Shown: piece after piece, positions 3,224-60,890 of the stretch | Layout: every line of letters begins with the position of its first letter | Numbering within the stretch: position 1 is the stretch's first letter | Source of the DNA: Actinomycetota bacterium | GTDB lineage: Bacteria > Actinomycetota > Acidimicrobiia > Acidimicrobiales > Ilumatobacteraceae | Assembly (NCBI GenBank): GCA_026393475.1 | Contig: JAPLAA010000101.1 | Coordinates: 62,001-126,000, forward strand | Length of the DNA: 64,000 bases | Direction of reading: 5' to 3' | The notes under the pieces: model-generated | What the model saw: the letters and a program-made list of their open reading frames with translations, nothing else | Told to the model about the DNA's origin: nothing | Databases searched by the model: none | Position numbers and translations under genes: made by a program

Positions 3224-3322
3224 ATGAGAGATGAGTGGCGGTGCCGCCCCGATCTCTCATGGCCTCGAGGCGGCCCCGGCCGTGATGAGAGATGGGCGCG
3301 CCACGGCCGCTCATCTCTCATC
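3224..3322. repeat. Twin hairpin element (REP-like)
   Basis: Two hairpins 60 bases apart share the same arm. ATGAGAGAT (3224-3232) pairs with ATCTCTCAT (3252-3260), with an inner GGCGG/CCGCC stem. GATGAGAGATG (3284-3294) pairs with CATCTCTCATC (3312-3322). They fill most of the gap between the TSUP stop and dinB. There is no T-run, so they may act as factor-dependent or bidirectional terminators or as REP elements. Confidence 0.7.
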
Positions 3323-3363
3323 GCGGGGGTCATGAAGGCTGGACGATCGAACAGGTGTTCGAT

Positions 3364-3369
3364 TAGAGT
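3364..3369 (+). promoter_or_regulatory. Leaderless -10 (TAGAGT) of dinB
   Basis: TAGAGT then seven bases then GTG at 3377. This places the start right before the conserved Y-family N-terminus and discards about 159 codons of open frame upstream. Confidence 0.6.
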
Positions 3370-3376
3370 TCTCGAC

Positions 3377-33550: not shown

Positions 33551-34319
33551 CTGCCTCGGGGGTGTCTCCCGGCGCTGTGGCCTCGGTGGGTGCAGCGGGT
33601 GAGTCGGGTGAGTCGGGTGAGTCGGGTGAGTCGGGTGAGTCGGGTGAGGCGGCGCGCATGCGATCGGCGAGGCGGCGCAGCCCCTGCACGAACACGTCGC
33701 TCTCCTGCGCCCCTGGCACCATCCAGCCCTGTCCTTCGGGTCCGGCGAACACGAACGTCGGCACCGCGGTGATCTCCGACTCACGGGCCACCTGCAGCCA
33801 TTGCTGCACCTCGGCCACGCCGTCGTCGCTGTCGAGGAACGCCCGCACCCGGTCGCGGTCGAGACCGACCTCGGCAGCGCAGTCGGCGAGCACGTCGGGA
33901 TCGCCCACGTCGAGGCCGTCCTCGAAGTAGGCGCGCAGCAGCCGCTCCTTGAGCGCGCCCTGGTGGCCGGTGGTCTCGGTGAGCAGCAACAGACGGTGGG
34001 CGAGCAGGGTGTTGGCCCGCAACGCCCGCTCCATGTGGAACTCGATGCCCTCGCCTGCTGCGATTCCGGTCACATGACCGATGATCTGCTCGGCACGTTC
34101 CGGCCCGCCGAACTTCTTGGCGTACGCATCCTTGACCGGCGTCGCCTTCCCGGGTGACGCCGTGGGATCGAGCTGGTACGGCCGGTACACCGCCCGCACC
34201 TCGATGTCGTCGCCTGCCTCGTGCAGCTCGGCGAGGGCGTTCTCGAAACGCCGTTTGCCGATGTAGCACCACGGGCAGACGACATCGGACCAGATCTCGA
34301 CCTCGAGCACGGTAGCCAT
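33543..34319 (-). CDS. DsbA-family thioredoxin-like oxidoreductase (FrnE-like)
   Basis: A 258-residue cytoplasmic protein (no signal peptide) with EIWSDVVCPWCYIGKRRFE, a CPWC active site, and the cis-Pro loop AVPTFVFAG. It matches the FrnE/2-hydroxychromene-isomerase-like branch of the DsbA superfamily. The C-terminal tail has five Ser-Pro-Asp copies from a 9-base repeat. It is placed between menH and menD but has no known menaquinone role. The start follows TAGTCT-N7 on the reverse strand. Confidence 0.88.
   Translation of the reverse strand: MATVLEVEIWSDVVCPWCYIGKRRFENALAELHEAGDDIEVRAVYRPYQLDPTASPGKATPVKDAYAKKFGGPERAEQIIGHVTGIAAGEGIEFHMERALRANTLLAHRLLLLTETTGHQGALKERLLRAYFEDGLDVGDPDVLADCAAEVGLDRDRVRAFLDSDDGVAEVQQWLQVARESEITAVPTFVFAGPEGQGWMVPGAQESDVFVQGLRRLADRMRAASPDSPDSPDSPDSPDSPAAPTEATAPGDTPEADA
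33601..33645 (-). repeat. In-frame 9-base tandem repeat, five copies
   Basis: GAGTCGGGT occurs five times exactly, flanked by partial copies. Read on the reverse strand it gives the Ser-Pro-Asp tail of the DsbA-like protein. Confidence 0.95.
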
Positions 34320-34326
34320 CGATCCA

Positions 34327-34345
34327 AGACTAGGGCCCGTATCGT
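34327..34345. promoter_or_regulatory. Back-to-back leaderless promoters for the DsbA-like gene and menD
   Basis: Reverse: TAGTCT (34332-34327), seven bases, ATG at 34319. Forward: TATCGT (34340-34345), seven bases, GTG at 34353. The two genes are only 33 bases apart, so any upstream element of one must overlap the other gene. Confidence 0.6.
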
Positions 34346-34352
34346 TCCTGGC

Positions 34353-36038
34353 GTGTCAGCAGCTGAGCGCGCTCGAGCGAACGCAGAGGTCCAGGCCACG
34401 TTCTGCGCCACCCTGGTCGACCAGTGGGTGCGCGACGGCGTGACCCACGCGATGGTGTCGCCCGGTTCGCGATCGACACCGATGGCGCTCGCGATCGCGG
34501 CGTGCGCCGACCTGCACGTCGAGGTGTTCCACGACGAGCGCTCGGCGGCGTTCGCCGCGCTCGGCGCCGGCCTGGCGAGTGGACGCCCCGCGCTGCTGCT
34601 GTGCACCAGCGGCACCGCCGCCACCCACTTCCACGGTGCGGTCGTCGAGGCGCACCTGAGCCAGGTGCCGATGCTCGTCCTGACGGCCGATCGCCCACCC
34701 GAGTCGCGCGATGTCGGCGCGCCGCAGACCATCGACCAGACCAAGCTCTACGGCGACGCTGTCCGGTGGTACCACGATCCCGGCGTGCCCACCGTCGACA
34801 CCGCCGGCTCCTGGCGCGCCGTCGCCCGGCACACGCTCGCCCGCACGCTCGGCTCGCACGCCGGTCCTGTCCATCTGAACCTGCCGTTCCGCGAACCGCT
34901 CGTGGGCGACGCGGGCGAGCTCCCCGACGCGCATCTCGGCCGCCTGCTCGTCGAGGCGCCGTCGGTCCGGCTCGGCACGCTCGCGATGCAGCTCGACCGC
35001 GAGCGCGGCGTCATCGTCGCCGGCCGTGGCGTCGACGACCCCGCTGCCGTCGCGGCGCTGTCGGCCGCCACCGGGTGGCCGGTGCTGGCCGATCCGCGAT
35101 CGGGATGTCGTGGCATCGCGGGCGCGGCGAGCGCGTTCGACTCGTTGCTGCGCCACGACGACTTCGCCGCGTCACATCTGCCCGAAGTGGTGGTCCACCT
35201 CGGTGAGCCGCCGGCGTCGAAGGTGCTGTCCACCTGGCTCGCCGCGTCGGGCGCCGTGCAGGTGCGCGTCACCGCGACCGACACCTGGATCGATCCCGCG
35301 CACTCGGTGGCGCACCGGGTCGTCGCACCGATCGGTGAGTTCTGCCGCCGATTGGCGGGCGAGTTGCGTGGCGCCGGTGGCAGCGACTGGGTGCAGCGCT
35401 GGGCCCATGTGACGGCCATCGCCGATCGTGAACTCGGCAGCGCACTCGACGGTGCCACCGAGCTCACCGAGCCGTTGGTGGCCCGCGTGGTCTCACGCCT
35501 CGACGGCCACGTCGTCGTCGCCTCGTCGATGCCCGTGCGCGACCTCGAGTGGTTCGGCGATCCCGACCAGCGGGCGACGGTGTGGTCCAACCGGGGAGCG
35601 AACGGCATCGACGGCACGGTCGCGACGGCGATCGGGATCGCCGCGGTCACGGGCCGTCCGGTCACGGTGCTGCTCGGCGACGTCGCGTTGTTGCACGACG
35701 CCTCGTCGCTGACGGCGCTCGCCGGGCGCGACCTGCAGGTGCGCATCGTCGTGGTCGACAACGACGGCGGCGGCATCTTCTCGTTCCTGCCGCAGGCGTC
35801 GGCGCTCGCGGCCGACCGGTTCGAGCAGCTCTTCGGCACGCCGCACGGCACCGACGTGGTCGGGCTCGCGGCCGCACACGGGCTGCGGGCGTCCAGCGTG
35901 TGCGACCGCGGCGAGCTCGAGGCGAGGCTGGCCGAGGCCGGGTCGCAGCTCATCCGGGTGCCGAGCGAACGTGGGGCGAACGTGCACGAGCACGCCCGCC
36001 TCCACGCCGTGGTCACCTCGGCGATGCGCCCCGACTGA
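34353..36038 (+). CDS. menD: SEPHCHC synthase MenD
   Basis: A 561-residue thiamine-diphosphate enzyme joining isochorismate and 2-oxoglutarate in menaquinone synthesis. The N-terminal domain has the catalytic Glu region HAMVSPGSRSTPMALA and HDERSAAFAALG. The cofactor domain has LLGDVALLHD and VVVDNDGGGIFSFLPQ. The GTG start is set by TATCGT-N7. The isochorismate supplier menF is 2.5 kb downstream on the other strand. Confidence 0.95.
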   Translation: MSAAERARANAEVQATFCATLVDQWVRDGVTHAMVSPGSRSTPMALAIAACADLHVEVFHDERSAAFAALGAGLASGRPALLLCTSGTAATHFHGAVVEAHLSQVPMLVLTADRPPESRDVGAPQTIDQTKLYGDAVRWYHDPGVPTVDTAGSWRAVARHTLARTLGSHAGPVHLNLPFREPLVGDAGELPDAHLGRLLVEAPSVRLGTLAMQLDRERGVIVAGRGVDDPAAVAALSAATGWPVLADPRSGCRGIAGAASAFDSLLRHDDFAASHLPEVVVHLGEPPASKVLSTWLAASGAVQVRVTATDTWIDPAHSVAHRVVAPIGEFCRRLAGELRGAGGSDWVQRWAHVTAIADRELGSALDGATELTEPLVARVVSRLDGHVVVASSMPVRDLEWFGDPDQRATVWSNRGANGIDGTVATAIGIAAVTGRPVTVLLGDVALLHDASSLTALAGRDLQVRIVVVDNDGGGIFSFLPQASALAADRFEQLFGTPHGTDVVGLAAAHGLRASSVCDRGELEARLAEAGSQLIRVPSERGANVHEHARLHAVVTSAMRPD

Positions 36039-36060
36039 TCTGTGACCGGGGCCGGGCCGG

Positions 36061-36729
36061 TCAGCCGAAGACGTCGGTGAAGATCTGCTCGAACTCCGGC
36101 GTCGCCGGTCCGCTCGATCCGCAGCTGGTGACCACGCCGTCGACGGCGGTCACGAGGTAGCGGGTGCCGACCACGAAGTCGACACCGTCGAGGGCCGCGG
36201 TGAAGCCGGCTGGGACGGCGAGGTCGACGACGTCGGAGTCGCCGCCGCGGAACCAGCGGTCGACCTCGATGCGGATCGTGGAGCCGGTCGTCTGATCACC
36301 GGTGATCTCGGTGACGGTGCCGCCGAAGGCGATCTCGACACCGGCCAGCTGTGACGGTTCGAAAGCGAGGCAGATGCTCGTCAGGGGATCGACGGGCGTG
36401 ACCGCGAGCTCGGTGGCCGTGACGGTCGGGGATGCGCCGTTGGACGCGATGAGTGCGATCGCAGCAGCGGCGACGACGCCGGCACCGCCGACGGCGAACC
36501 AGCGCCGGCGGCTGCGAGGCGCGAGAGAGGCGTGGGACCGGGTCGGGGCGTCGTCGTCGACGAGTGGGGTGGACATGATGGCCTCCAGGAGGGTGCGGGC
36601 CCGATCGCTCGTGATCAGGTCGATGGGTGGTTCCGTGTGTGAGGTCGCATCGGCGATCGGATCGAGGGCGACGAGCGCGGCTCGCAGCCGTCCGTCCGGG
36701 CTTCGGGGGTCGTGCTGGTCGGTGCTCAT
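36061..36729 (-). CDS. Single-pass membrane protein, probable anti-sigma partner
   Basis: A 222-residue protein with a cytoplasmic N-terminus of about 75 residues, one transmembrane helix (GGAGVVAAAAIALIASNG) and an extracytoplasmic domain of about 120 residues containing two cysteines (SICLAF and TSCGSS). No HxxxCxxC zinc anti-sigma motif is present. It overlaps the upstream ECF sigma factor gene by four bases, and that coupling is the reason for the anti-sigma proposal. The outer domain has no family I recognise. Confidence 0.6.
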   Translation of the reverse strand: MSTDQHDPRSPDGRLRAALVALDPIADATSHTEPPIDLITSDRARTLLEAIMSTPLVDDDAPTRSHASLAPRSRRRWFAVGGAGVVAAAAIALIASNGASPTVTATELAVTPVDPLTSICLAFEPSQLAGVEIAFGGTVTEITGDQTTGSTIRIEVDRWFRGGDSDVVDLAVPAGFTAALDGVDFVVGTRYLVTAVDGVVTSCGSSGPATPEFEQIFTDVFG

Positions 36730-37418
36730 CGGTCCTCCTTCCGTCTGTCGATGCGTTCACCCGGGAGGTGTCCACCTGCCTGTCGGATCTTTCGCACCAG
36801 CCACCGATCGAAGGTGTGTCCTCCGACCGAGAGGAACCCTGCGTCTCGTGCAGGCCCCAGCCGTTCCGCGAGACGTTGCTTCACCCGGTGCAATCGGATG
36901 CTCACCGCGTTGGCGCTCAGCCCGAGTGCGACGGCGATGTCCCGCGGCGGCAGTCCGTCCCATGCCCACAGCAGGACGATCTCGCGATCGGTGTCGGGCA
37001 GTTCTGCGAGTGCGGTGTGCAGGTCGGCGACGAGATCGTTCTCGTCGGCGGAGTCCGGCGGCGCCACCGGTTGGGCCGCCAGCCGATGGCCGACGTTCGC
37101 CTGGCGACGTTCGCCGCGTCGGTCGTTGGCCAGGCATCGGCGGGCGACGCCCAACGTCCAGGCGAGCGCAGCGTCGTCGGGCACGTCGTCGAGTCGGCGC
37201 CAGCACACGAGCAGGGTGTCGCTGACGACGTCGTCGGCCGCCGCTGCATCGATGCGGCGACGAACGTATCGCTGGAGCGGCTCGTACACCTCCGTGGCGA
37301 GCGCCTCGAAGCGGGCGCGACGCATCGCATCGTGCGCGTCGGCCGGTGCGGTGGATGTCGGGCGTGCTCCCACGACACCTCCGGTGTCCGGCCCACCCCG
37401 TTTCCTTTCACGCGCCAC
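36726..37418 (-). CDS. ECF-type RNA polymerase sigma factor
   Basis: A 230-residue sigma-70-family factor. Region 2 (about 40-105) has YEPLQRYVRRRIDAAAADDVVSDT and TLGVARRCLANDRR. Region 4 (about 140-195) has LPDTDREIVLLWAWDGLPPRDIAVALGLSANAVSIRLHRVKQRL. The next gene overlaps its stop and is probably its membrane-bound regulator. The start is a GTG at 37418; MRRARFEALA, about 30 codons later, is an alternative. Target promoters are unknown. Confidence 0.9.
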   Translation of the reverse strand: MARERKRGGPDTGGVVGARPTSTAPADAHDAMRRARFEALATEVYEPLQRYVRRRIDAAAADDVVSDTLLVCWRRLDDVPDDAALAWTLGVARRCLANDRRGERRQANVGHRLAAQPVAPPDSADENDLVADLHTALAELPDTDREIVLLWAWDGLPPRDIAVALGLSANAVSIRLHRVKQRLAERLGPARDAGFLSVGGHTFDRWLVRKIRQAGGHLPGERIDRRKEDR

Positions 37419-37461
37419 GGAGAGATCCTGCCCCGCTTCTCTGCGCCCGCGCGATCACCGC

Positions 37462-37514
37462 TCGGACCTTCGCTCAGAATCCGTCGTCCACGACGGATTC
37501 AGCGAGAATGTCGC
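37462..37514. repeat. REP-like palindromic repeat, left copy
   Basis: GAATCCGTCGT (37477-37487) pairs with ACGACGGATTC (37490-37500) across two bases. The 30 bases at 37479-37508 are identical to 38507-38536, and an outer TCGGACCTT is also shared. This copy supplies the last two codons and the stop of the DUF559 gene. Confidence 0.95.
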
Positions 37515-38482
37515 GTGGTCGCTCGCTGGTCGATGAGTGCGACGAGTTCCTCGAGTACCTCGTCGAGCCGATCGAGATCGGTCCACCAGACCTCGACGAT
37601 CTCCCAGCCGAGTGCTCGGAGCCGGCGCCGGCGGCGGGCATCGTCCGCCCGTGCGGTCGGCGTGGCGTGCCACCGCCAGCTCTGGCACTCCACCCCGATG
37701 AGCAGGTCGGGGATGGCGAGATCGAGCCGGGCGATGGGGTGGCGGGTGCCGTCGAACACCTGGTGCTCGTCGAGCAGCTCGATGCCTCTCAGGGCGAATG
37801 CTGTGCGTGCCAGGCGCTGGAACCAACTGCCGGGGAGCGGAGCGTCGATGCGCTCGCGCAGCAGCTGGAAAACGATCGACGCGCCAGGCATGCGATGTGA
37901 CCGCCACTCGGTCGCGACCGTGCGCACCCACTCTGGCGATCGGCCCGCACGGAGCATGCCGTCGAAGGCCTTGCCGGCCGCGTCGGCGCCGTCGGCCGCG
38001 GCGAGCTGGAGCAGCGCGACCGGTTGGATCACCGAACGGAAGCCACCGACGACGACGCTGTGGCGATCCGTGAGCACGACGGAGCGATGCACCACGGTGC
38101 CCGGCGTCGAGCGCAGGCCATGCCCGTCGGTCGATGAGATCTCGATGCGTTCGTCGCGGTCGTAACCGTCGAAGCCGTGGAGTCTGCCCGCGGTCGCATG
38201 GCTGGCCACCGCGTACGGGCCGGCGGCGAGCAGCGCCGCCCGGACGTCGGGGGCCCACGACGGAGCGGCGCCGGTCAGCCCGAGCACCTGGCGGTGGATC
38301 CGGCGCCACTCCCGGGTGCGCAGGCGCTGGCGGATGAAGCCCTCCGTCACGCCGACGGCGCGGAGCTGGCCGACGGTCGCGAGGCCCTGCTGGTGGGCGA
38401 ACACGGAGGTGGCGCGAGCGATCGTCGGGATGTCCACGCGAACACAGAGGTGCACCGACCGAGGGTGATCGGAAGTTCGCAT
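37499..38482 (-). CDS. AbiEi-like / DUF559 protein flanked by direct repeats
   Basis: A 327-residue protein. The N-terminal 75 residues resemble the winged-helix domain of type IV antitoxins (FAHQQGLATVGQLRAVGV, RREWRRIHRQV-like). The C-terminal region, DLAIPDLLIGVECQSWRWH to LGWEIVEVWWTDL, is a DUF559 endonuclease-like (Vsr-related) fold with the acidic residues retained. No toxin partner is adjacent. The stop lies in the left repeat and the ATG is eight bases from the right repeat, so the gene exactly fills the space between two copies. Function unknown; such genes are often strain-variable. Confidence 0.8.
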   Translation of the reverse strand: MRTSDHPRSVHLCVRVDIPTIARATSVFAHQQGLATVGQLRAVGVTEGFIRQRLRTREWRRIHRQVLGLTGAAPSWAPDVRAALLAAGPYAVASHATAGRLHGFDGYDRDERIEISSTDGHGLRSTPGTVVHRSVVLTDRHSVVVGGFRSVIQPVALLQLAAADGADAAGKAFDGMLRAGRSPEWVRTVATEWRSHRMPGASIVFQLLRERIDAPLPGSWFQRLARTAFALRGIELLDEHQVFDGTRHPIARLDLAIPDLLIGVECQSWRWHATPTARADDARRRRRLRALGWEIVEVWWTDLDRLDEVLEELVALIDQRATTRHSR

Positions 38483-38489
38483 CGCGATC

Positions 38490-38542
38490 TCGGACCTTTG
38501 CGCTGTATCCGTCGTCCACGACGGATTCAGCGAGAACGTCGT
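38490..38542. repeat. REP-like palindromic repeat, right copy
   Basis: Second copy of the palindromic element, 1028 bases from the first, with 30 identical bases (38507-38536). It lies between the DUF559 start and the 3' end of menF. Confidence 0.95.
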
Positions 38543-38569
38543 GCCGACAGCCGGGCCTGCTCGCCGGGG

Positions 38570-39754
38570 TCAGGGGCGGACGATGGCGCTGAGCATCGCC
38601 TGCAGCTTCGCCTGCGTCTCGGCCAACTCGGCTGACGGCTCGCTCGCCGCGACGATCCCGCCGCCGGCGACGAGGCGCGCGCTGCGGCGGTCGGCCGAGA
38701 ATTCGGCGCAGCGGATCGTGACCGCCCAGCGGCCGTCACCGTTCGCATCGACCCATCCCACCGCACCCCCGTAGCGGCCGCGCTCGAACCCCTCGTGCTC
38801 GGCGATCAGCCGGAGCGCCTCGTCGCGTGGGAAGCCCCCGAGCGCCGGCGTGGGCGACAGCGCACGGACGAGGGTGAGGACGTTCGGTCGCGGGTCGGAC
38901 AGCCGACCCTCCATCGCCGTCGCCAGGTGCTGCACGTTGGCGACGGTCATGATCGACGGCTCGGGCTCCCAGTCGAGATAGCTGCACCAGGGGAGCAGGG
39001 TGTCGTGGATCATGTCGATCACGACCCGGTGCTCGACCTGGTCCTTGGTGCTCGCGACCAGCTGTGCTGCGACCCGCTCGTCGGTGGCGGGGTCGCCCGT
39101 GCGCGGTGCGGTGCCCGCCAGTGGGTGCGATCGCACCTCGTCGCCGTCGACGGCCACGAGCAGCTCGGGCGACGCGCCCACGAGCCCGTCGATCGAGTAC
39201 CGGTGGCTCGACCCGAACGACGCCTTCAACCGGAGCAGCACGGCGTGCACGTCGATCGGTTCGTCGCTGCGCACCGAGACCTCACGAGCGATGACCGCCT
39301 TCAGCAACTCGCCGTCGCGCACGGCGTCGCGTGCCGCCGTGACCGCCGCCAGATAGCGGTCGACCGGCGTGAGCGGGCCGACCTCGAAGCGCTGGGCCCG
39401 CGGTGCGGGTCGGGGTGTGGCGCGGAGCTCGGGCGCCGGCTCGTCACCGCCTTCGACACGGGTGACCCATCGGGTGCCGTCGACCGCGACCCCGATGAGC
39501 AGCGCCGGGATCACGAGGGTCGCCGCGGCGCCGGGTTCGAACGGCACGCTGCCGACCGCGATGGGGGAGCGACCACCCACGCCGTCGTCGTGCTCGATCG
39601 ACGCCAGGACGGCGGGGGCGTCGTCGGCGCTCACCCGTGCGGCGACGCCTCGTCCGGCGATGCCCACGCCGTCGCGCACGAACAGGTAGCCGTCGGATGC
39701 TGCGAGGTCGTCGAGCTCGATCGCGTCGAGCAGCGGGCGGGTGACGGCGCGCAT
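38570..39754 (-). CDS. menF: Isochorismate synthase MenF
   Basis: A 394-residue chorismate-utilising enzyme that makes isochorismate. Motifs include LKAVIAREVSV, SSHRYSIDGLVGASPELL, SHPLAGTAPRTGD, STKDQVEHRVVIDMI and PTPALGGFPRDEAL in the C-terminal catalytic domain. Isochorismate could also feed siderophores, but the neighbouring menG (one base away) and menD favour menaquinone. It follows menG on the same strand and shares its promoter. The REP-like repeat downstream may act as its terminator. Confidence 0.92.
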   Translation of the reverse strand: MRAVTRPLLDAIELDDLAASDGYLFVRDGVGIAGRGVAARVSADDAPAVLASIEHDDGVGGRSPIAVGSVPFEPGAAATLVIPALLIGVAVDGTRWVTRVEGGDEPAPELRATPRPAPRAQRFEVGPLTPVDRYLAAVTAARDAVRDGELLKAVIAREVSVRSDEPIDVHAVLLRLKASFGSSHRYSIDGLVGASPELLVAVDGDEVRSHPLAGTAPRTGDPATDERVAAQLVASTKDQVEHRVVIDMIHDTLLPWCSYLDWEPEPSIMTVANVQHLATAMEGRLSDPRPNVLTLVRALSPTPALGGFPRDEALRLIAEHEGFERGRYGGAVGWVDANGDGRWAVTIRCAEFSADRRSARLVAGGGIVAASEPSAELAETQAKLQAMLSAIVRP

Positions 39755-39755
39755 G

Positions 39756-40460
39756 TCAGCGACGCGTGCCCACCATCAGCTGGGTGAGGCCACCCGAGAG
39801 CTGGCGGTGCACGGCATCGTCGAACCCGGCGTCGCGCAGGAGTTGCACCAATTGCTCGCGCGGCGGCAGGTAGGCGACGCTCTTGGGCAGGTAGCGGTAC
39901 GCGGCGCCGTCGCTGAGCAGCGCGCCGATCTTCGGTACGACCTTGCCGAAGTAGATGTTGTTACCGAACCGGATGACGGGATTGTGGGGGACGCCGACGT
40001 CGAGCAGGGCGAAGCGCCCGCCGGGCCGGACGACGCGGGCGAGCTCGGCGAAGAACGTGGGCAGGTCGACCAGGTTGCGCAGTGCGAACCCGCACGTGAC
40101 ACCGTCGACCGAACCGTCGGGCACGGGCAGGCGCAGGATGTCGGCCTGCATGCGCGGCACACCGCTGCGATCGGCGCTGAGCATGCCGAAGCTGAGGTCG
40201 GTGGAGAGCGGGTGGAACCCGGCAGCGGCGAGGTCGATGCACAGGTCGCCGGTGCCGCTCGCGAGATCGAGCACGGTGCTGCCCGCGGGGAGGTGCAGCG
40301 ACTTCACCGCGATGCGGCGCCAGCGCACGTCGAGCCGGAAGGTCATGATCCGGTTGACCAGGTCGTAGCGCGGTGCGATCGCGTCGAACATCTGGCGGAC
40401 CGCCACCACCTTCTCGTCCCCCTCGGGGAGGGTCTCGCTGTCCCAGGCACGTTGGTTCAC
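39756..40460 (-). CDS. menG: Demethylmenaquinone methyltransferase MenG/UbiE
   Basis: A 234-residue SAM-dependent methyltransferase that performs the last step of menaquinone synthesis. MFDAIAPRYDLVNRIMTF, the SAM motif VLDLASGTGDLCIDLA, and the FALRNLVD family block are all visible. It begins at a GTG found by TAGCCT-N6 on the reverse strand and leads a two-gene operon with menF. The amidase gene is divergent. Confidence 0.95.
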   Translation of the reverse strand: MNQRAWDSETLPEGDEKVVAVRQMFDAIAPRYDLVNRIMTFRLDVRWRRIAVKSLHLPAGSTVLDLASGTGDLCIDLAAAGFHPLSTDLSFGMLSADRSGVPRMQADILRLPVPDGSVDGVTCGFALRNLVDLPTFFAELARVVRPGGRFALLDVGVPHNPVIRFGNNIYFGKVVPKIGALLSDGAAYRYLPKSVAYLPPREQLVQLLRDAGFDDAVHRQLSGGLTQLMVGTRR

Positions 40461-40466
40461 ACCGTG

Positions 40467-40472
40467 AGGCTA
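40467..40472 (-). promoter_or_regulatory. Leaderless -10 (TAGCCT) of menG-menF
   Basis: TAGCCT on the reverse strand, six bases, GTG at 40460. Confidence 0.55.
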
Positions 40473-40534
40473 GGGCCGGGCGACCGTACGAGCAGGTCTG
40501 GCGGGGTGTGCCCCGTGTGACAGCATCGGCGGCC

Positions 40535-41941
40535 ATGGGGAACGAACTGTGGCGTCACGGAGCATTGGAACTCGCGGGCATGATCGCTCGCGGCGAGGTG
40601 TCGAGCGTGGAGGTGGTGCACGCGCACCTCGCTCGCATCGACGAGGTGAACCCGAAACTGAACGCGGTCGTGCGTCGCTTCGACGACGACGCGCTCGCCG
40701 CGGCGGCTGCGGCCGACGCAGCCGTGGCGTCGGGTGCGCCGCTCGGTGTGCTCCACGGCGTGCCGATGACCGTGAAGGAGAACATCGACCTCGCCGGCAC
40801 GCCGACGACCAGTTCGCTCGTGGCCTTCGCCGATGCGATCGTGCCGAGGGACGCGCCGGTGGTCGAGCGGATGAAGGCTGCGGGTGCCATCCCGATCGGC
40901 CGCACGAACCTGCCCGACATGGGATTGCGGGTCACCACCGAGTCGTCGTTGCACGGCGTGACGCACAACCCGTGGCACCGCGATCGCACCGCCGGGGGTT
41001 CGAGCGGTGGCGAGGCGTCGGCACTGTCGAGCGGCATGAGCCCGATCGGGCTCGGCAACGACATCGGCGGATCGCTGCGCAACCCGGCCCACTGCTGCGG
41101 CATCGCGTCGATCAAGCCGTCGGTGGGCGTCATCCCGTCGGCCGCGACGTTGCCGCCGGAGGACATGACGATCAGCTTCCAGCTGATGGCGGTCGAAGGT
41201 GTGATGGCCCGCACGGTGGCCGATGTGCGGGCGGGCTTCCTCGCGGTGGCCGGTCCGCACGAGCGCGATCCGCTGGCGCTGCCCGTCCAGCTCGCCGACC
41301 TCGACACGTCTCGACCGCTGCGCGTTGCGTTGATCCCCGAGCCGGCCGGTGGCAGTACCGACCCGGGCATCGCCGCCGCGATCCGTGGGGCGGGCGAGGC
41401 GCTGGCGAAGCAGGGTGCGATCGTCGAGGAGGCCTCGCCGGCGAGCTACGAGCGGGCCATCGAGCTCTGGGGCGCACTGCTCGGCACCGAGCTCACGCTG
41501 ATGCGGCCGTTGCTCGACATGGTGATGGGAGAGGGCGGGCGGCAGTTCCTCGACCTCACCACGCAGATCATCCCGACCGCCGACCTCGCCGGGTTCTCAC
41601 AGGTGTTCCTCGGCCGTCACGCTGCGGAGAAGGACTTCCACACGTTCCTCGGTCGCTACGACGTGATCATCAGCCCGACGTGGGCGCTGCCGGCGTTCGA
41701 GCTCGGGTCGGATGCGGCGAGCCTCGAGGGTGCGCAGCGCACGCTCGAGACGATGCGTCCGGTGCTCCCGGCCAACTTCCTGGGCCTGCCCGCCGCGGTG
41801 GTCCCGGTGGGCGTGTCCGACGGCCTGCCCGTCGGCGCGCAGGTGATCGCCCGCCGGTTCGCCGATCTGCGCTGCCTCACCGTGGCGCAGATGCTGGAGG
41901 ACGCGTTCGGCACGATCACCCCGATCGACCCGACCTGGTGA
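40535..41941 (+). CDS. Amidase (amidase-signature family)
   Basis: A 468-residue amidase. The Ser-cisSer-Lys triad is placed as Lys in MTVKENIDLAG, cis-Ser in DRTAGGSSGGEASAL and nucleophile Ser in GNDIGGSLRNPAHCCG. It is not GatA, since no GatB or GatC lies nearby and the C-terminal part differs. It likely hydrolyses small or xenobiotic amides. A weak CAGCAT -10 lies eight bases before the ATG. It is followed by a twin hairpin element. Confidence 0.9.
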   Translation: MGNELWRHGALELAGMIARGEVSSVEVVHAHLARIDEVNPKLNAVVRRFDDDALAAAAAADAAVASGAPLGVLHGVPMTVKENIDLAGTPTTSSLVAFADAIVPRDAPVVERMKAAGAIPIGRTNLPDMGLRVTTESSLHGVTHNPWHRDRTAGGSSGGEASALSSGMSPIGLGNDIGGSLRNPAHCCGIASIKPSVGVIPSAATLPPEDMTISFQLMAVEGVMARTVADVRAGFLAVAGPHERDPLALPVQLADLDTSRPLRVALIPEPAGGSTDPGIAAAIRGAGEALAKQGAIVEEASPASYERAIELWGALLGTELTLMRPLLDMVMGEGGRQFLDLTTQIIPTADLAGFSQVFLGRHAAEKDFHTFLGRYDVIISPTWALPAFELGSDAASLEGAQRTLETMRPVLPANFLGLPAAVVPVGVSDGLPVGAQVIARRFADLRCLTVAQMLEDAFGTITPIDPTW

Positions 41942-41944
41942 CCC

Positions 41945-42039
41945 TTCGTGAGCGGCATGCGCCCATACGGCGCAGATCGCTCACCAACGACCATCGTTCG
42001 TGAGCGGAGTGCGCAACTGCGGCGCACATCGCTCACGAA
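41945..42039. repeat. Twin hairpin element (REP-like), second family
   Basis: Two related units start with TTCGTGAGCGG at 41945 and 41997. Unit 1 pairs GTGAGCG (41948-41954) with CGCTCAC (41978-41984) and TGCGCC with GGCGCA inside. Unit 2 pairs TTCGTGAGCG (41997-42006) with CGCTCACGAA (42030-42039) and GTGCGC with GCGCAC. It sits exactly between the convergent amidase and acyl-CoA synthetase genes. Confidence 0.85.
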
Positions 42040-42048
42040 GCACCGGTG

Positions 42049-43662
42049 TCAGGCGTCGATGGCGGTCTGCTTGGCCCAGCGGTAGTCGGCCTTGCCCGAC
42101 GGCGACCTGACGATCTCGTCGACGAACACGAACGCCTTGGGCAGCTTGTACCGGGCCACGTGGCGCTCGGCCTCGGCGAGGAGCGAGGCCGTATCGGCCT
42201 CGGCGCCCTCGCGCATGCGCACGATCGCCACGACCTCGTTGCCCCATCGTTCGCTCGGGCGGCCGGCGACCACGCAGTCGTAGACGCCGGCGTGCGCCTT
42301 GATCGCGGCCTCGACCTCCTCGGCGAAGATCTTCTCGCCGCCGGAGTTGATCGTCACCGAGTCGCGTCCGTGGAGCTCGATGATGCCGTCGACGCGGAGC
42401 CGGGCGCGGTCGCCCGGGACGGCGTAGCGCACACCGTCGACGACGGGATACGTGCGCGAGGTCTTCGCCGCGTCACCGAGGTAGCCGAGCGCGAGGCGTC
42501 CGCTCTTGGCGAGCCAGCCGAGCTCGTCCTCGCCGGGCGCGAGCTCGCGGTCGAGATCGCCCGACAGCACGTGGTTGCCGGGTGAGATCGGGAACGTGCC
42601 CGTGGTGGCACCGCCGCCGGCGGACACCTGCGACAGCTGACCGCCGGCCTCGGACGAGCCGAGTCCGTCGACGATCATCATCGTCGGCAGGTGCTGCAGG
42701 AACTCGTTCTTCAACCCGGCCGACAGCGGGGCGCCGCCGGAGAGGAGCACGGTGAGCGTGGACAGGTCGTACCGATGGCGTGAGAGTTCGTCGAGCAGCG
42801 GCCGACCGAAGGCGTCGCCGACGATCAGCAGGAAGTTGAGCTGCTCGCGTTCGATGAGCCCCCAGACGTCGGTGGGGTCGAGCCGCTCGGGCACGCTCTG
42901 CACGTAGACGCAGCCGCCCGAGTTCCAGGTGCGGAAGCTCATCCAGTGGCCGGCGCCGTGCATGAACGGGGGAGCGAGCAGTGCCTTGAGACCGCCGACG
43001 GCCTCGTCCACGATGCCCTCGATGGTCTCGGCCCGCGAGCCGCCGAAGCACTCGACGTTGGCGTCGGCGTTGCGCCACAGCACACCCTTGGGCATGCCGG
43101 TGGTGCCGCCGGTGTAGAGGATGTAGAGGTCGTCGCCACTCCACGTCACGGCGGGCTTCTCGGGCGACGCTGCGGCGAGGGCCTCCTCGTACCAGACCGC
43201 CCCCGGCAGGAGGTCGTGGCCCGACTCGTCGGGCACCTGCAGGATCACGCGCAGCTTCGGCAGGTCGCGCAGCACCTCAGCGAGCGTGGGGGCGAACTGG
43301 CTGTGGACCACGATCGCCTCGGCCGCGGAGTCGGTGAGCAGGTAGCGCAGTTCCTCGGCGACGTACCGGTAGTTGACGTTGAACGGGGCGACCCGCGCCT
43401 TGAACGAGCCGAGCATCGCCTCGAGGTACTCGTTGCCGTTGTGCAGGTAGATCGCGAGGTGCGACTGGCCGCTCTCGTGTCCGGCGAGTTCGGACCGCTC
43501 GGTGCGCACGCCGAGGCCCTGGGCGAGCAGGTGGTTCGCGAAGCGGCGGGTGCGGTCGGTGACCTGGCCCCACGTGAGACGCCGGTCGCGGAAGACGAGA
43601 CACTCCTGGTCGGGGCGGGTGGCGGCGATCGCTTCGTGGACGTCGGCGACGGAGAACTCCAT
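42049..43662 (-). CDS. Acyl-CoA synthetase (FadD-like)
   Basis: A 537-residue adenylate-forming acid-CoA ligase. The P-loop is YTGGTTGMPKGVLWRN, the A5 region GLGSSEAGG, the hinge GDRARLRVDG, and the C-terminal catalytic Lys is in SPSGKADYRW. The LLSGGAPLSAGLK block is typical of the actinobacterial FadD group acting on medium or long fatty acids or steroid side-chains. The chain length is unknown. TAGGTT-N6 on the reverse strand sets the start. Confidence 0.9.
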   Translation of the reverse strand: MEFSVADVHEAIAATRPDQECLVFRDRRLTWGQVTDRTRRFANHLLAQGLGVRTERSELAGHESGQSHLAIYLHNGNEYLEAMLGSFKARVAPFNVNYRYVAEELRYLLTDSAAEAIVVHSQFAPTLAEVLRDLPKLRVILQVPDESGHDLLPGAVWYEEALAAASPEKPAVTWSGDDLYILYTGGTTGMPKGVLWRNADANVECFGGSRAETIEGIVDEAVGGLKALLAPPFMHGAGHWMSFRTWNSGGCVYVQSVPERLDPTDVWGLIEREQLNFLLIVGDAFGRPLLDELSRHRYDLSTLTVLLSGGAPLSAGLKNEFLQHLPTMMIVDGLGSSEAGGQLSQVSAGGGATTGTFPISPGNHVLSGDLDRELAPGEDELGWLAKSGRLALGYLGDAAKTSRTYPVVDGVRYAVPGDRARLRVDGIIELHGRDSVTINSGGEKIFAEEVEAAIKAHAGVYDCVVAGRPSERWGNEVVAIVRMREGAEADTASLLAEAERHVARYKLPKAFVFVDEIVRSPSGKADYRWAKQTAIDA

Positions 43663-54860: not shown

Positions 54861-54878
54861 TCTGGCGTCAGCGCCAGA
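54861..54878. terminator. Hairpin spanning a convergent gene end
   Basis: TCTGGCG (54861-54867) pairs with CGCCAGA (54872-54878). The four-base loop contains the reverse-strand stop of the carboxylase fusion (54868-54870), so the structure can serve both the mtrA-like gene and the fusion gene. Confidence 0.6.
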
Positions 54879-57800
54879 CGCGGCTGCGGAGGTACTCGCC
54901 GAGGCCCTTGGCCTGAGGGTCGAAGGCGGTGCTGCTGGCCACGCCCTCGCCCAGGTAGCCCACGATCACGAAGTTGAGGGCGTGCAGGTTGGGCAGTTCG
55001 AACCGACGCACCTCGAGTTCGCGTGCTTCGGGGATCAGCTCACGCACCATGGCGGCCGTGAGGTGCTGGTGCAGCCAGGCGTAGCCGGCCTCGTCACGGG
55101 CGAACATGCCGACGTTGGCGTTGCCGCCCTTGTCGCCCGAACGGGCGGCGAAGTACCTGCCGAGCGGTTCTCCGGTCGATGGACCCGCAGGTGGGGCGGT
55201 GGGCGCCGGGTGAACGCCCAGCTCAGCGGCATTGCCGGTGAGCAGCGGTGTCGGGATCGTGGTGTGCGACCCGTCGGCGTGCACGACCACCTGGGTGACC
55301 TCGTCGTTCGGCACGAGCGCCGGCCAGTACACGCCGAACGCCTGCGCCTCGCCCGGGGCTGAACTGGAGAAGAAGCCCGGGTAGTTGGCGAGGGCGAGCT
55401 CGACAACGGCCGAGCTGAACGCCCGACCGACGAGGCGCTCGTCGGTGCTCTTCACCGTCACGTGCAACCGGCCCGACGCGGCCTCCTGCGGCTCGGCGTC
55501 GCTCGGCGCCTCCACGAACCGCACGTCGACCTCGTCGAAGCGGTCCTTCCCGCCGAGGCGGGCGAACAGGGCCGACTCGGCCCAGTCGGCCTTCTCGCGC
55601 TGGTCGAGCCCGGTGAGCACGAAGCTCATCCGGTTGCGGAACCCGCCCTCGAGGTTGATGCAGACCTTGGTGGTGGCCGGCCCGGGGGTGCCGCGGGTGC
55701 CGTGGATCTTCACCCGGTCGAGTCCCTGTTGCGACAGCTCGATGGTGTCGAAATGGCTGGTGACGTCGGGGTTCAGGTACTGCGGCGGACCGATCTCGTA
55801 CAGCAGTTGCGAGGTGACGGTGCCGACGTCGACCAGGCCTCCGGTGTCGGGGTGCTTGGTGATGATGCACGAACCGTCGCGGTCGATCTCGGCGATCGGG
55901 AATCCTGGTGCCTTGGTGCGGTCGCCGATGTCGGCGAACCACGAGTGGTTACCACCGGTCGCCTGCGCGCCGCACTCGATGACGTGCCCGGCGACGACGG
56001 CTCCGGCGAGGGCGTTCCAGTCGTCGGTGTCCCAGTCCCACCACCAGGCCGCAGGTCCGAGGACGACCGCGGCATCGGTGACACGCGGTGCGACCACCAC
56101 GTCGGCGCCGCCTGCGAGGGCGGCGGCGATGCCCCACCCGCCGAGGTAGGCGTTGGCCGACACGGGTGATCCGGTGAATTCGGCGCCGGTGTCGAGGTGT
56201 GCGAGGTGTGGCCGCAGGCCGTCGATGCGCGGCAGCAGGTCGTCGCCCTCGATGTGGGCCACGTTCACGCGGATGCCCAGCTTGTCGGCGATCTGGCGCA
56301 CCCGATCGGCGCAGCCGGCCGGGTTGAGGCCACCGGCGTTGGTGACCACCTTGATGCCCTGGTCGATGCACGTACCGAGCACCTGTTCCATCTGGGTGAG
56401 GAACGTGCTCGCGTAGCCGAGGTCGGCGTTGCGGCTGCGCTGCTTGTGCAGGATGAGCATGGTCAGCTCGGCGAGCCAGTCGCCCGTGAGCACGTCGATC
56501 GGGCTGTCGGCGGTGACGGCGGGGTCGACCATCTCGCGTGCCGCGGAGAGGCGGTCGCCGAAGAAGCCCGAGCAGTTGGCGATGCGGGCCTCGATGCGGA
56601 CCAGGACCTGGCCGTGATCGAGCTGTTGGCCGGCCTGGACGAAGATCTCCGCCACCGTGCCGCCGGTGGGCGCCACCACCTGGTGCTCCATCTTCATCGC
56701 CTCCATGGCCAGCATCGGTTGGCCGGGGACGACCGTGTCGCCCACGGCGACGAGGATGCGCAGCACCGACCCGGGCATCGGGGCCACCAACGATCCGGCG
56801 CGGCCGGCGTCGTCGGGTGGGCTGAACCGGGGCGGGACGTCGAGTGCGAGCCGGCCGCCGAGCAGGTGCACCACACCGTCGATCACGAGCGGGGGACGCA
56901 GCCGGGCGATGTCACGCGCGGTCTGCACCTCGATCGGCGTGTCGCCGATGAGCAGTTCGGAGATCGCGCCCCACCGATCGACGCCGTAGCGGACGGTGTG
57001 GTCGCCGATGCTCAGTTCGTGCAGCTGTGACGGCACGTTGCGCCAGCCGAACGGCACGCCGGGCAGCGTGGTGCGGGCGGCGGCCTGTGCGTCGATCACC
57101 GCCACCGCAGCGGCCGCGACGAGGTCGTGGTCGGGCGGCGGTGGCGCGCTCATCGGGGTGCGGTCGAGGTAGCTGGTGTCGACGACGTCGTCGATCGACT
57201 CGAGGATCGACGCCAGGTGGATCAGCTGCTCGCGGTTGGTGGTGGGGCCGATGATCGTCGCGCCGGTGAGCGCCTGCACGATGCGCCGTGCGGCGATGCG
57301 CCGGGTGGCGCCGTGGGCGATCACCTTGGCGACCATCGAGTCGTAGTACGGGCTCACCACCGAGCCGCTCTCGATGCCGCTGTCGATGCGCACGCCCTCG
57401 ATCGCCGGGAACTCGACGGTGTGGAACGTGCCCGAGCTGGGGCGGTAGCCGTTGAACGGGTCTTCGGCACAGAGCCGCACCTCGATCGCGTGGCCGGTGC
57501 TGACGGGGTCGACGGCGGCGTGGGGGAGCGGCTCGCCATCGGCCACCCGGAGCTGCAGTTCGACGAGGTCGAGGCCGGTGACCATCTCGGTCACCGGGTG
57601 CTCCACCTGCAGGCGGGTGTTCATCTCGAGGAAGAAGAAGTTGCCACTGCGGTCGAGCAGGAACTCGACGGTGCCGGCGCCCACGTAGCCGACGGCCCGT
57701 GAGGCGGCGATGGCGGCGTTGCCCATCCGTTGGCGCAGTTCGGGGTCGACGGCCGGCGACGGGGATTCCTCGACGATCTTCTGGTGGCGACGCTGCAGCG

Positions 57801-58485
57801 TGCAGTCGCGCTCGAACAGCGACACGGTGGCGCCGAGCGTGTCGGCGAACACCTGGATCTCGACGTGCCGGCCGCCCTCGACGTAGCGCTCGACGAACAC
57901 GGTGCCGTCGCCGAAGGCCGACAGTGCTTCGCGTTCGGCGGAGGCGATGGCGTCGGCGAGCCCGTCGGCGTCTCGAACGACGCGCATGCCACGCCCGCCA
58001 CCGCCGGCGGATGCCTTCACGAGTGCGGGCAGACCGATCTCGTCGAGCGACTCGACCGTGTTGTCGGGCAGCACCGGCACGCCGGCGGCGCGCATGAGTT
58101 GCTTGGCGCCGATCTTCGACCCCATCGCGGCGATGGCCGACGCCGGCGGTCCGATCCACGTGAGTCCGGCGTTGGCGACGGCTTCGGCCGCGTCGGGCCG
58201 TTCGGACAGGAAGCCGTAGCCGGGGTGGATGGCCTGGGCGCCGGTGCGCTCGGCGGCGGCGATGAGGAGGTCGACGCGCAGGTAGGTGTCGGCCGATGCG
58301 GTGCCGGGCAGCCGGACGGCGACGTCGGCCTCGCGGACGTACGGGGCATCGGCATCCGCGTCGCTGTGGACCGCGACGGTCTCGATGCCGAGCCGTCGGC
58401 AGGTGCGGATGATCCGGCGTGCGATCTCGCCACGGTTGGCGATGAGGACGCGGTCGATCGGGGCACGGCGGGTGGTGGTGCTCAT
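54868..58485 (-). CDS. Fusion: biotin carboxylase + biotin carrier + AtuA (DUF1446)
   Basis: One uninterrupted frame of 1205 residues. Residues 1-445 are biotin carboxylase: IANRGEIARRI, the ATP-grasp loop KASAGGGGRGMRVV, FLEMNTRLQVEHPVTEM. Residues 563-632 are a biotin carrier with the lysine in LAMEAMKMEH (K598). With no linker, residues 633-1205 are a complete AtuA protein: RIANCSGFFGDRLSAAREM, GDWLAELTMLILHKQRSR, VVTNAGGLNPAGCADRVRQ, and the C-terminal ferredoxin-fold domain ARSGDKGGNANVGMFARD. AtuA normally is a separate protein of acyclic terpene (citronellol/geraniol) breakdown, encoded beside geranyl-CoA carboxylase. The carboxyltransferase gene is four bases upstream. Confidence 0.92.
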   Translation of the reverse strand: MSTTTRRAPIDRVLIANRGEIARRIIRTCRRLGIETVAVHSDADADAPYVREADVAVRLPGTASADTYLRVDLLIAAAERTGAQAIHPGYGFLSERPDAAEAVANAGLTWIGPPASAIAAMGSKIGAKQLMRAAGVPVLPDNTVESLDEIGLPALVKASAGGGGRGMRVVRDADGLADAIASAEREALSAFGDGTVFVERYVEGGRHVEIQVFADTLGATVSLFERDCTLQRRHQKIVEESPSPAVDPELRQRMGNAAIAASRAVGYVGAGTVEFLLDRSGNFFFLEMNTRLQVEHPVTEMVTGLDLVELQLRVADGEPLPHAAVDPVSTGHAIEVRLCAEDPFNGYRPSSGTFHTVEFPAIEGVRIDSGIESGSVVSPYYDSMVAKVIAHGATRRIAARRIVQALTGATIIGPTTNREQLIHLASILESIDDVVDTSYLDRTPMSAPPPPDHDLVAAAAVAVIDAQAAARTTLPGVPFGWRNVPSQLHELSIGDHTVRYGVDRWGAISELLIGDTPIEVQTARDIARLRPPLVIDGVVHLLGGRLALDVPPRFSPPDDAGRAGSLVAPMPGSVLRILVAVGDTVVPGQPMLAMEAMKMEHQVVAPTGGTVAEIFVQAGQQLDHGQVLVRIEARIANCSGFFGDRLSAAREMVDPAVTADSPIDVLTGDWLAELTMLILHKQRSRNADLGYASTFLTQMEQVLGTCIDQGIKVVTNAGGLNPAGCADRVRQIADKLGIRVNVAHIEGDDLLPRIDGLRPHLAHLDTGAEFTGSPVSANAYLGGWGIAAALAGGADVVVAPRVTDAAVVLGPAAWWWDWDTDDWNALAGAVVAGHVIECGAQATGGNHSWFADIGDRTKAPGFPIAEIDRDGSCIITKHPDTGGLVDVGTVTSQLLYEIGPPQYLNPDVTSHFDTIELSQQGLDRVKIHGTRGTPGPATTKVCINLEGGFRNRMSFVLTGLDQREKADWAESALFARLGGKDRFDEVDVRFVEAPSDAEPQEAASGRLHVTVKSTDERLVGRAFSSAVVELALANYPGFFSSSAPGEAQAFGVYWPALVPNDEVTQVVVHADGSHTTIPTPLLTGNAAELGVHPAPTAPPAGPSTGEPLGRYFAARSGDKGGNANVGMFARDEAGYAWLHQHLTAAMVRELIPEARELEVRRFELPNLHALNFVIVGYLGEGVASSTAFDPQAKGLGEYLRSRVWR

Positions 58486-58489
58486 GGGG

Positions 58490-60088
58490 TCACATCCGGA
58501 ACACGCCGTAGCCGCGGGTGCCCGCGGGGGCGTCGTTGTCGATGGCGCTGAGGCACATGCCCAGCACCGTGCGGGTGTCTCGCGGGTCGATGATGCCGTC
58601 GTCGTAGAGCTTGCCGCTCATGAACATGGCGAGCGACTCGCGTTCGATCTGCTCCTCGACGGTTCGGCGCATGACCTCGTCGGCCTCCTCGTCGAACGGC
58701 TTGCCCATCGAGGCCGCGGACTGACGGGCCACGATCGAGAGCACGCCGGCCAGCTGCTGCGGGCCCATCACCGCCGTCTTTGCGTTCGGCCAGGTGAACA
58801 GGAACCTGGGGCCGTACGAGCGGCCGCACATGCCGTAGTTGCCCGCGCCGTAGGAAGCGGCCATGTTGATCGTGAGGTGCGGCACACGGCTGTTGGTGAC
58901 CGCGTTGATCATCTTGGCGCCGTCCTTGATGATGCCCCGGCGCTCGAACTCCTTGCCGACCATGTAGCCGGTGGTGTTCTGGAGGAACACCAGCGGCGTG
59001 TCGATCTGGTTGGCGAGTTGGATGAACTGCGCCGCCTTCTCGCTCTCCTCGTTGAACAGCACGCCGCGGTGGTTGGCGAGGATGCCGATCGGGTAGCCGT
59101 GCAGCTCGGCGAAACCGGTGACGAGCGAGGTGCCGTACAGCGGCTTGAACTCGTCGAAGTCGCTGTCGTCGACGATGCGGGCGATCACCTGGCGCGGGTC
59201 GAAGGGGATCTTCGGATCGGCCGACGGGATGCCGATCAGCTGCTCCTGGTCGTAGCGGGGCGGCAGGCCCGCGCCGCGTGGCCCCGGCCCGCGCTTGCGG
59301 TGGTTGAGCCGGCGGATCACCTGCCGGCCGAGGCGGATGCCGTCCATCTCGTCGACCGCGAAGTAGTCGGCGAGGCCGCTGACGCGGGCGTGCATCTCGG
59401 CGCCGCCGAGGCTCTCGTCGTCGCTCTCCTCACCGGTGGCCATCTTCACCAGCGGCGGCCCGCCGAGGAACACCTTCGAGCGCTCCTTGATCATGACGAT
59501 GTAGTCGCTCATGCCGGGCGTGTAGGCGCCACCGGCGGTGGAGTTGCCGAACACGACGGCGATCGTGGGGATGCCGTCGGCCGACAGCGCGGTGATGTCT
59601 CGGAACGACTTGCCGCCGGGGATGAACGTGTCGCTCTGCGACGGCAGGTCGGCGCCGCCACTCTCGACGAGGTTGACGAGCGGCATGCGGTTCTCGCGGG
59701 CGATCTCCATGCCGCGCAACGCCTTCTTCATCGTGAGCGGGTTGCTCGCACCGCCGCGCACCGTGGGGTCGTTGGCGATGATCACGCACTCGACGCCCTC
59801 CACCACCCCGACGCCGAGCACCATCGCCGCACCGATCGGGAACTGGGTGCCGTACGCGGTGAGCGGGTTGATCTCGAGGAACGGGCTGCCCGGGTCGAGC
59901 AGTGCCTCCACCCGCTCGCGGGCGAGCATCTTGCCGCGCTTGCGGTGGCGCTCGACGTAGGCGGGGCCGCCGCCGCCGAGCACCTTCGCGAGTTCGGCGT
60001 CGTGTGCGGCCACCTGGGCGAGCATCGCGGCGCGGTTCTCCGCGTACGCCTCGGAGGTGGTGTTCAAGGTGTCGGGCAGGACCGGCAT
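58490..60088 (-). CDS. Acyl-CoA carboxylase beta subunit (carboxyltransferase), geranyl/methylcrotonyl type
   Basis: A 532-residue carboxyltransferase, partner of the biotin-bearing fusion protein. Motifs include RHRKRGKMLARERVEALLDPG, NDPTVRGGASNPLTMKK, ESGGADLPSQ, NTTGYMVGKEFERRGIIKDG, SYGAGNYGMCGRSYGPRFLF and MGPQQLAGV. The AGNYGMCGR context fits branched enoyl-CoA carboxylases (MccB, AtuC) rather than propionyl-CoA types. A GAGGAGA site precedes the ATG. It is the second gene of the hydratase-carboxyltransferase-fusion operon. Confidence 0.9.
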   Translation of the reverse strand: MPVLPDTLNTTSEAYAENRAAMLAQVAAHDAELAKVLGGGGPAYVERHRKRGKMLARERVEALLDPGSPFLEINPLTAYGTQFPIGAAMVLGVGVVEGVECVIIANDPTVRGGASNPLTMKKALRGMEIARENRMPLVNLVESGGADLPSQSDTFIPGGKSFRDITALSADGIPTIAVVFGNSTAGGAYTPGMSDYIVMIKERSKVFLGGPPLVKMATGEESDDESLGGAEMHARVSGLADYFAVDEMDGIRLGRQVIRRLNHRKRGPGPRGAGLPPRYDQEQLIGIPSADPKIPFDPRQVIARIVDDSDFDEFKPLYGTSLVTGFAELHGYPIGILANHRGVLFNEESEKAAQFIQLANQIDTPLVFLQNTTGYMVGKEFERRGIIKDGAKMINAVTNSRVPHLTINMAASYGAGNYGMCGRSYGPRFLFTWPNAKTAVMGPQQLAGVLSIVARQSAASMGKPFDEEADEVMRRTVEEQIERESLAMFMSGKLYDDGIIDPRDTRTVLGMCLSAIDNDAPAGTRGYGVFRM

Positions 60089-60113: not shown

Positions 60114-60890
60114 TCAGGCGTCGGGTGCGGCGGGTGCAGCGGGTGTGGGCCAGTGCGGCGTGCGCCGTTCGGCGAAGGCCGCCATGCCCTCGCGGGCCTC
60201 GTCGCTCCAGAACAGCGATTCGCTGAGCGCCTGCATCTCCGCCCAGGTGCTGCCGCCCCGCAGCAGTCGCTTGGTGGCAGCGATGGCGTTCGGCGCGCCG
60301 AGCAACACCCCGTCGACGAGGGTGCGGACCGCCGCGGGCACGTCGTCGGCGACGTGGGTGACGAGGCCCAGGTCCTTCGCCGCGACGGCGTCGAAGGCCT
60401 CACCGGTGAGGAACGGCGCGGCCAGCTTGCTCCACCCGCATCGTTGCAGGATGGGCACGCTGATGATCGCCGGGGCGACGCCGATGCGGACCTCGGTGAA
60501 CGCGAACGTGACGTCGGGCTGCACGACGACCAGGTCGCACGACGCCATCAGCCCGATGCCGCCGGCCCGCACCGGGCCCCGCACGGCGGCGATCGTGGGC
60601 TGCGACGCCTCGATCAGCCGCTGCATCGCACGCACCATCGGGGTGGAGTCGGCCGGGCCGCTGCTGCGCTCCTTCAGGTCCGCTCCGGCGCAGAACGCCG
60701 GGGCGGTGTGGGTGAGCACGATCGCCCGCACATCGGGCTGCTCGGCGCGGTCGAGCGCGTCGTGCAGCCCGGCGAGCAGGGCGCGCGAGAGCGCGTTTCG
60801 GTTGGCCGGCGAGTCGAGCGTGATGGTCGCGACCCCGTCGGTCACCTCGCACCGCACGACCGGCCGCGTGTCCGACGAATCGTCCCCCAT
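60114..60890 (-). CDS. Enoyl-CoA hydratase/isomerase family protein
   Basis: A 258-residue crotonase-fold protein with ITLDSPANRNALSRAL, the oxyanion-hole segment FCAGADLKER and VRGPVRAGGIGLMASCDLVV, plus the acidic region TEVRIGVAPAI. As first gene of the carboxylase operon it is placed to hydrate the carboxylated product, the step done by LiuC/AtuE on methylglutaconyl- or isohexenylglutaconyl-CoA. That assignment comes from context. TACAGT-N8 on the reverse strand gives a leaderless start. Confidence 0.85.
   Translation of the reverse strand: MGDDSSDTRPVVRCEVTDGVATITLDSPANRNALSRALLAGLHDALDRAEQPDVRAIVLTHTAPAFCAGADLKERSSGPADSTPMVRAMQRLIEASQPTIAAVRGPVRAGGIGLMASCDLVVVQPDVTFAFTEVRIGVAPAIISVPILQRCGWSKLAAPFLTGEAFDAVAAKDLGLVTHVADDVPAAVRTLVDGVLLGAPNAIAATKRLLRGGSTWAEMQALSESLFWSDEAREGMAAFAERRTPHWPTPAAPAAPDA

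Follow-up and report, generated by a model that had tools for sequence, protein, structure and literature searches.

In the window analyzed here, that is, the 64,000 nt that comprise positions 62,001-126,000 (forward strand) of contig JAPLAA010000101.1 from Actinomycetota bacterium GCA_026393475.1 (Ilumatobacteraceae), we identified a small acyclic-terpene-type operon that consists of genes for a hydratase, a carboxylase beta subunit, a carboxylase alpha subunit and AtuA. The most probable scenario (probability about 0.65) is that a deletion of about 59 bases joined the alpha subunit and AtuA genes of this operon, the product being a one-chain protein in which the carboxylase part would be followed by an acetate-releasing AtuA. 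The fusion itself is probably real; that it is a working bifunctional chain, with a geranyl-CoA carboxylase (GCC) alpha subunit and a complete AtuA lyase located after the biotin domain in a single holoenzyme, is a tentative proposition, to which we give somewhat less than even odds. The features involved are the following:

60114..60890, minus strand: enoyl-CoA hydratase/isomerase family gene, head of the run, putative AtuE role
58490..60088, minus strand: carboxyltransferase beta subunit, 532 aa, ATG at 60088, Gly158 at the GCC/MCC selectivity site, without the 3-residue insertion
54868..58485, minus strand: fused ORF, carboxylase alpha subunit and AtuA, 1205 aa, ATG at 58485
56590..58485, minus strand: alpha-subunit part, residues 1-632, with biotin carboxylase, BT region and BCCP (Pfam)
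56692..56694, minus strand: biotinylated-lysine codon, K598 in AMKM
56587..56599, minus strand: junction, both CCGCATCG copies present, 12 bases apart (71 apart in the relative KLAP8), net 59 bases fewer than in KLAP8
54868..56589, minus strand: AtuA part, residues 633-1205, with the AtuA domain and the AtuA ferredoxin-like domain (Pfam), without a start codon or ribosome site of its own

The frame runs from the ATG at 58485 to the stop at 54868 with no internal stop codon. Its N-terminal part has the domain order of an alpha subunit, namely the BC N-terminal, ATP-grasp and C-terminal domains (Pfam Biotin_carb_N, residues 10-118; CPSase_L_D2, 140-322; Biotin_carb_C, 335-441) followed by BCCP (Biotin_lipoyl, 567-631) with the biotinyl lysine in AMKM; the closest solved structure for this part is the Pseudomonas MCC alpha subunit 3u9s. 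The C-terminal part matches AtuA (PF07287, residues 634-1067, profile positions 2-435 of 437, 513 bits) and AtuA_ferredoxin (PF23544, residues 1113-1200, 68 bits), the curated cut-offs being 22.8 and 27 bits, respectively. BCCP, which ends in VLVRIE632, is separated by a single alanine from the conserved AtuA start R634-I-A-N-C-S-G, at about base 56589. The ORF and the Pfam matches thus confirm the layout proposed in the first-pass annotation of this DNA, a 1205-residue frame with biotin carboxylase, BCCP (K598) and a complete AtuA with its ferredoxin-like domain, and the linker-free junction placed there at residue 632/633. That annotation gave no strand; the fused ORF is on the minus strand.

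The nearest relative found is KLAP8 (genome G037, locus L032, CAUJET010000039.1), a member of the same genus in which alpha and AtuA are 95.7% and 97.4% identical, respectively, to the parts of the fused protein; the two loci are collinear, with about 92-94% DNA identity. In KLAP8, alpha (ending in VRIDSGDAEAGSGGAG before the stop) and AtuA (beginning with MHRGQRPVRIANCSG) are two genes with a 1-base overlap, TGATG, and a Shine-Dalgarno-like GGAGGAG directly precedes the ATG of AtuA. Compared to KLAP8, a net 59 bases are missing from the window; these encompass the last residues and the stop codon of alpha along with the GGAGGAG and ATG of AtuA. In the source lineage, the loss of about 59 bases probably joined the overlapping genes and thereby produced the fusion, in agreement with the small deletion that the first-pass annotation had put forward. 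The mechanism given there, deletion at a CGCATCG repeat, is not supported. The heptamer is indeed present on both sides of the junction, where each copy belongs to the 'VRI' codons native to the respective gene; however, KLAP8 has both GGTGCGCATCG copies 71 bases apart and the window has both 12 bases apart, which makes repeat-mediated deletion unlikely because recombination between two copies leaves one. A DNA hairpin was also considered as the cause and rejected, given that the KLAP8 segment as a single strand shows no better folding than shuffled sequences (z 0.33).

Two further observations concern the same genus. In the draft genome G066 (locus L003, minus strand, about 3256-3500), alpha is about 23 residues short and ends within BCCP (at AMKMEHQIVAPAAG); its stop is located 3 bases ahead of AtuA, with which alpha shares the frame. 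This represents a second deletion at the alpha/AtuA junction within the genus. At a contig end of KLAP8 (L078, 1-915), there is another fragment of the AtuA C-terminus, which shares 97% identity with the window protein; it may be either a second copy or a trace of a second strain in the KLAP8 assembly.

Among 853 distinct genomes (all 5 of the genus and samples of the family, 151, the class, 395, and the phylum, 396), a frame that passes through both parts without a stop was identified in one, the source genome, and every other match spanning both parts contains a stop. The fusion was found in 0 of the 80 loci from a GTDB-wide scan and in none of the plasmid matches listed, the best annotated of which are two genes. 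The match lists reach down to about 450-570 bits, and a fusion at 45-50% identity would be expected near at least 900 bits and hence among the matches listed, given that unfused in-frame pairs score 1000-1180 bits at 50-54%; these searches cover prokaryotes. Across these genomes, loci and listed plasmid matches, no second independent lineage with the same fusion was detected, and the architecture of GCC alpha and AtuA lyase in one chain was found in no other record searched, in line with the earlier statement that no described fusion of this kind was known. Given its presence in a single genome, the fusion is young and lineage-private, not a conserved architecture, with a consensus error as the less likely alternative.

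The unfused pair is tightly arranged, and the alpha and AtuA genes overlap in distant taxa: 12 of the 15 distinct adjacent pairs overlap, 8 of these by exactly 4 bases, and in Dietzia and Sphingobium plasmids the 4-base overlap is accompanied by adjoining beta and hydratase genes. In G416, G309, G435, G425, G209 and G162, alpha and AtuA are in the same frame with one stop between them, such that a single point mutation would join them. These pairs were considered as candidate readthrough fusions, but chance alone is expected to place about one third of separate gene pairs in a shared frame.

Because AtuA in the window has lost its ribosome-site-like sequence and its start codon, the full-length protein is probably made only as part of the fusion. 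An internal restart at the next in-frame ATG (residue 652) was rejected, as it would cost the invariant AtuA N-terminal residues (N, S, G, G, D, R; invariance judged over 45 AtuA proteins). The upstream GTG at residue 611 may be an alternative internal start.

The beta subunit gene is located upstream of the fused ORF, and four bases separate the end of the former from the start of the latter. According to the published rule, GCC differs from MCC in that Gly replaces Phe and a 3-residue insertion is absent in beta (Jurado et al., PMC4673880). The window beta subunit aligns without gaps to the GCC beta subunit 5ikl and has Gly at the site, whereas MCC beta chains carry the insertion; furthermore, it aligns from residue 2 with the N-terminus of MCC and GCC, the extended N-terminal helix of which distinguishes them from PCC. 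The full-length score favors the MCC beta subunit 3u9r (547 bits) over 5ikl (488 bits). By the published rule, the beta subunit sequence fits the geranyl-CoA carboxylase type. The terpene-type operon is surrounded by housekeeping genes (era, uppS), and elsewhere in the window (34221-43662) genes for a ThDP enzyme (34221-36038), a chorismate-binding protein (38570-39754) and an AMP-binding protein (42049-43662) are located close together and resemble a menaquinone-type cluster.

According to the published pathway, hydration of the carboxylase product is followed by a cleavage that yields acetate and a 3-oxoacyl-CoA (PMC4847356, PMC9973270, PMC4097962). AtuA has been proposed as the lyase that cleaves 3-hydroxy-3-alkylglutaryl-CoA, two steps after the carboxylase (PMC4847356, PMC9973270), whereas a review assigns the lyase step to LiuE instead (PMC4097962). 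The best solved match of our model of the AtuA part alone (pLDDT 92.3) is 9evf (E 1.7e-19, probability 1.00, TM 0.59/0.73, 14% identity), a citramalate lyase with ADP and pyruvate that was named both AtuA-family protein and citramalate lyase subunit A (CmlA) by its depositors. The sequence match to 9evf in the AtuA profile search is weak (E 0.009), and a phmmer search of AtuA alone against PDB sequences yielded no match, whereas the profile and fold searches did match. The significant structural match points to a CmlA-like fold and suggests which chemistry the AtuA family as a whole performs. AtuA fits the role of a lyase that releases acetate two steps downstream of the carboxylase, and because hydration intervenes, it would act on the product two steps on and not directly on the product of the biotin enzyme.

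The first-pass annotation had taken the fusion as an argument that AtuA acts directly on the substrate or product of the carboxylase. The argument itself is weak: only one genome was found to have the fusion, and one short deletion was enough to make it, so that it is hardly informative about function. The product side of the conclusion, with AtuA acting downstream of the carboxylase, is quite possibly correct on other grounds, namely the alpha/AtuA overlap across distant taxa, the geranyl-CoA-type beta subunit and the resemblance to CmlA. The functional argument is accordingly better founded on the beta subunit rule, the hydratase gene in the run and the CmlA resemblance than on the fusion. 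In the scenario that we favor, the fused ORF would yield a single chain, the alpha part of which, together with the separate beta subunit, would carboxylate a geranyl-CoA-like substrate at its gamma carbon. The hydratase would then add water, and the attached AtuA part would remove the carboxymethyl group as acetate, as the citramalate lyase subunit family does from citramalate. Apart from a fixed 1:1 ratio of alpha to AtuA, the fusion would probably bring about little change. BCCP has to travel about 80 A from one active site to the other (PMC4673880), a movement that a 570-residue load tethered to it via one alanine could hinder; the model of the whole fusion (pLDDT 60.5, below 50 at the junction), obtained from a shallow alignment, is too poor to interpret.

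Several other explanations have to be weighed. An assembly or consensus error in the draft genome, the true sequence being two overlapping genes as in the relatives, is unlikely albeit not far-fetched: every relative is unfused, and the 59-base gap is the largest indel across the stretch aligned to KLAP8, whereas the neighboring genes are in frame relative to KLAP8, with no frameshift. The in-frame outcome is expected by chance in about one case in three, and the draft genome G066 is also deleted at the junction, with about 23 BCCP residues gone, as if the site were troublesome. However, the junction lies deep inside the 159-kb contig, at about 118589, the flanks share a repeat of at most 8 bases, which would be too short alone to mislead a k-mer assembler, and the KLAP8 segment has an unremarkable single-strand fold. 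A real fusion could also be a step of decay, with alpha or AtuA impaired and the operon being lost or replaced by paralogues. We consider this rather improbable given that all domains are complete and that the window AtuA is the only AtuA copy in the source genome. The dN/dS values relative to KLAP8 (0.08 for alpha, 0.05 for AtuA) indicate purifying selection on both parts. When changes are polarized with L033, the window branch has 8 nonsynonymous and 85 synonymous changes, compared to 7 and 74, respectively, for the KLAP8 branch; this codon count, which is dominated by the time before the deletion, reveals no excess of amino-acid change on the window lineage, and relaxed selection after the fusion was rejected on the same count. 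A cruder count of amino-acid differences, 22 on the window branch vs 10, is without support from the codon-polarized count. The deletion may be too recent for selection to have tested the fusion, and the presence of the fusion in a single genome, the truncated BCCP of G066 as a second genus member, the other alpha-like matches in the source genome and the tight one-residue junction are all compatible with decay.

The adaptive explanation, which takes up the direct action proposed in the first-pass annotation and under which AtuA tethered beside BCCP channels the product directly, appears highly improbable. The physical linkage is in its favor, as is the conserved alpha/AtuA gene overlap, which suggests partners that are needed together, but the published pathway has a hydratase step that separates carboxylase from lyase, so that a direct BCCP-to-AtuA transfer would not be expected, and the fusion is fixed in no second lineage among the 853 genomes. 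A recent deletion that joined the two genes into one chain, with AtuA as the putative acetate-releasing lyase, is the reading that we prefer.

If real, this is a young natural fusion beside a nearly identical unfused sister species, such that the effect of joining overlapping genes is directly testable. The lyase role is disputed between AtuA and LiuE, and the resemblance to CmlA, together with the gene overlap with a geranyl-CoA-type carboxylase, makes the acetate-lyase idea concrete and testable. The fusion itself is of modest interest; the more useful result is the link between AtuA and a family of acetate-releasing lyases with a solved structure.

In single-chain biotin carboxylases, such as long-chain acyl-CoA carboxylase and pyruvate carboxylase, BCCP shares the chain with other enzyme parts; the part attached there is the carboxyltransferase, whereas in the window it is AtuA. 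The AtuC/AtuF geranyl-CoA carboxylase of Pseudomonas (PMC4673880) similarly has a BC-BT-BCCP alpha subunit and a separate beta subunit with Gly at the selectivity site and no insertion, but the window alpha runs on into AtuA, and the full-length score of its beta subunit is higher for MCC. Like AtuA of the acyclic terpene operons (PF07287 and PF23544), the window AtuA has both domains complete and the conserved N-terminal motif; it differs in being joined to BCCP and in having no start or ribosome site of its own. CmlA (9erq/9evf) is the solved structure that the AtuA model matches best in fold and is assigned to the AtuA family by its depositors, but it is shorter (456 vs 573 aa), 14% identical, acts on citramalate and is devoid of a carboxylase part. 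The unfused pair of KLAP8, from the same genus and with identical gene order and 95.7 and 97.4% identity, differs in comprising two genes with a 1-base overlap and in retaining the 59 bases that the window has lost.
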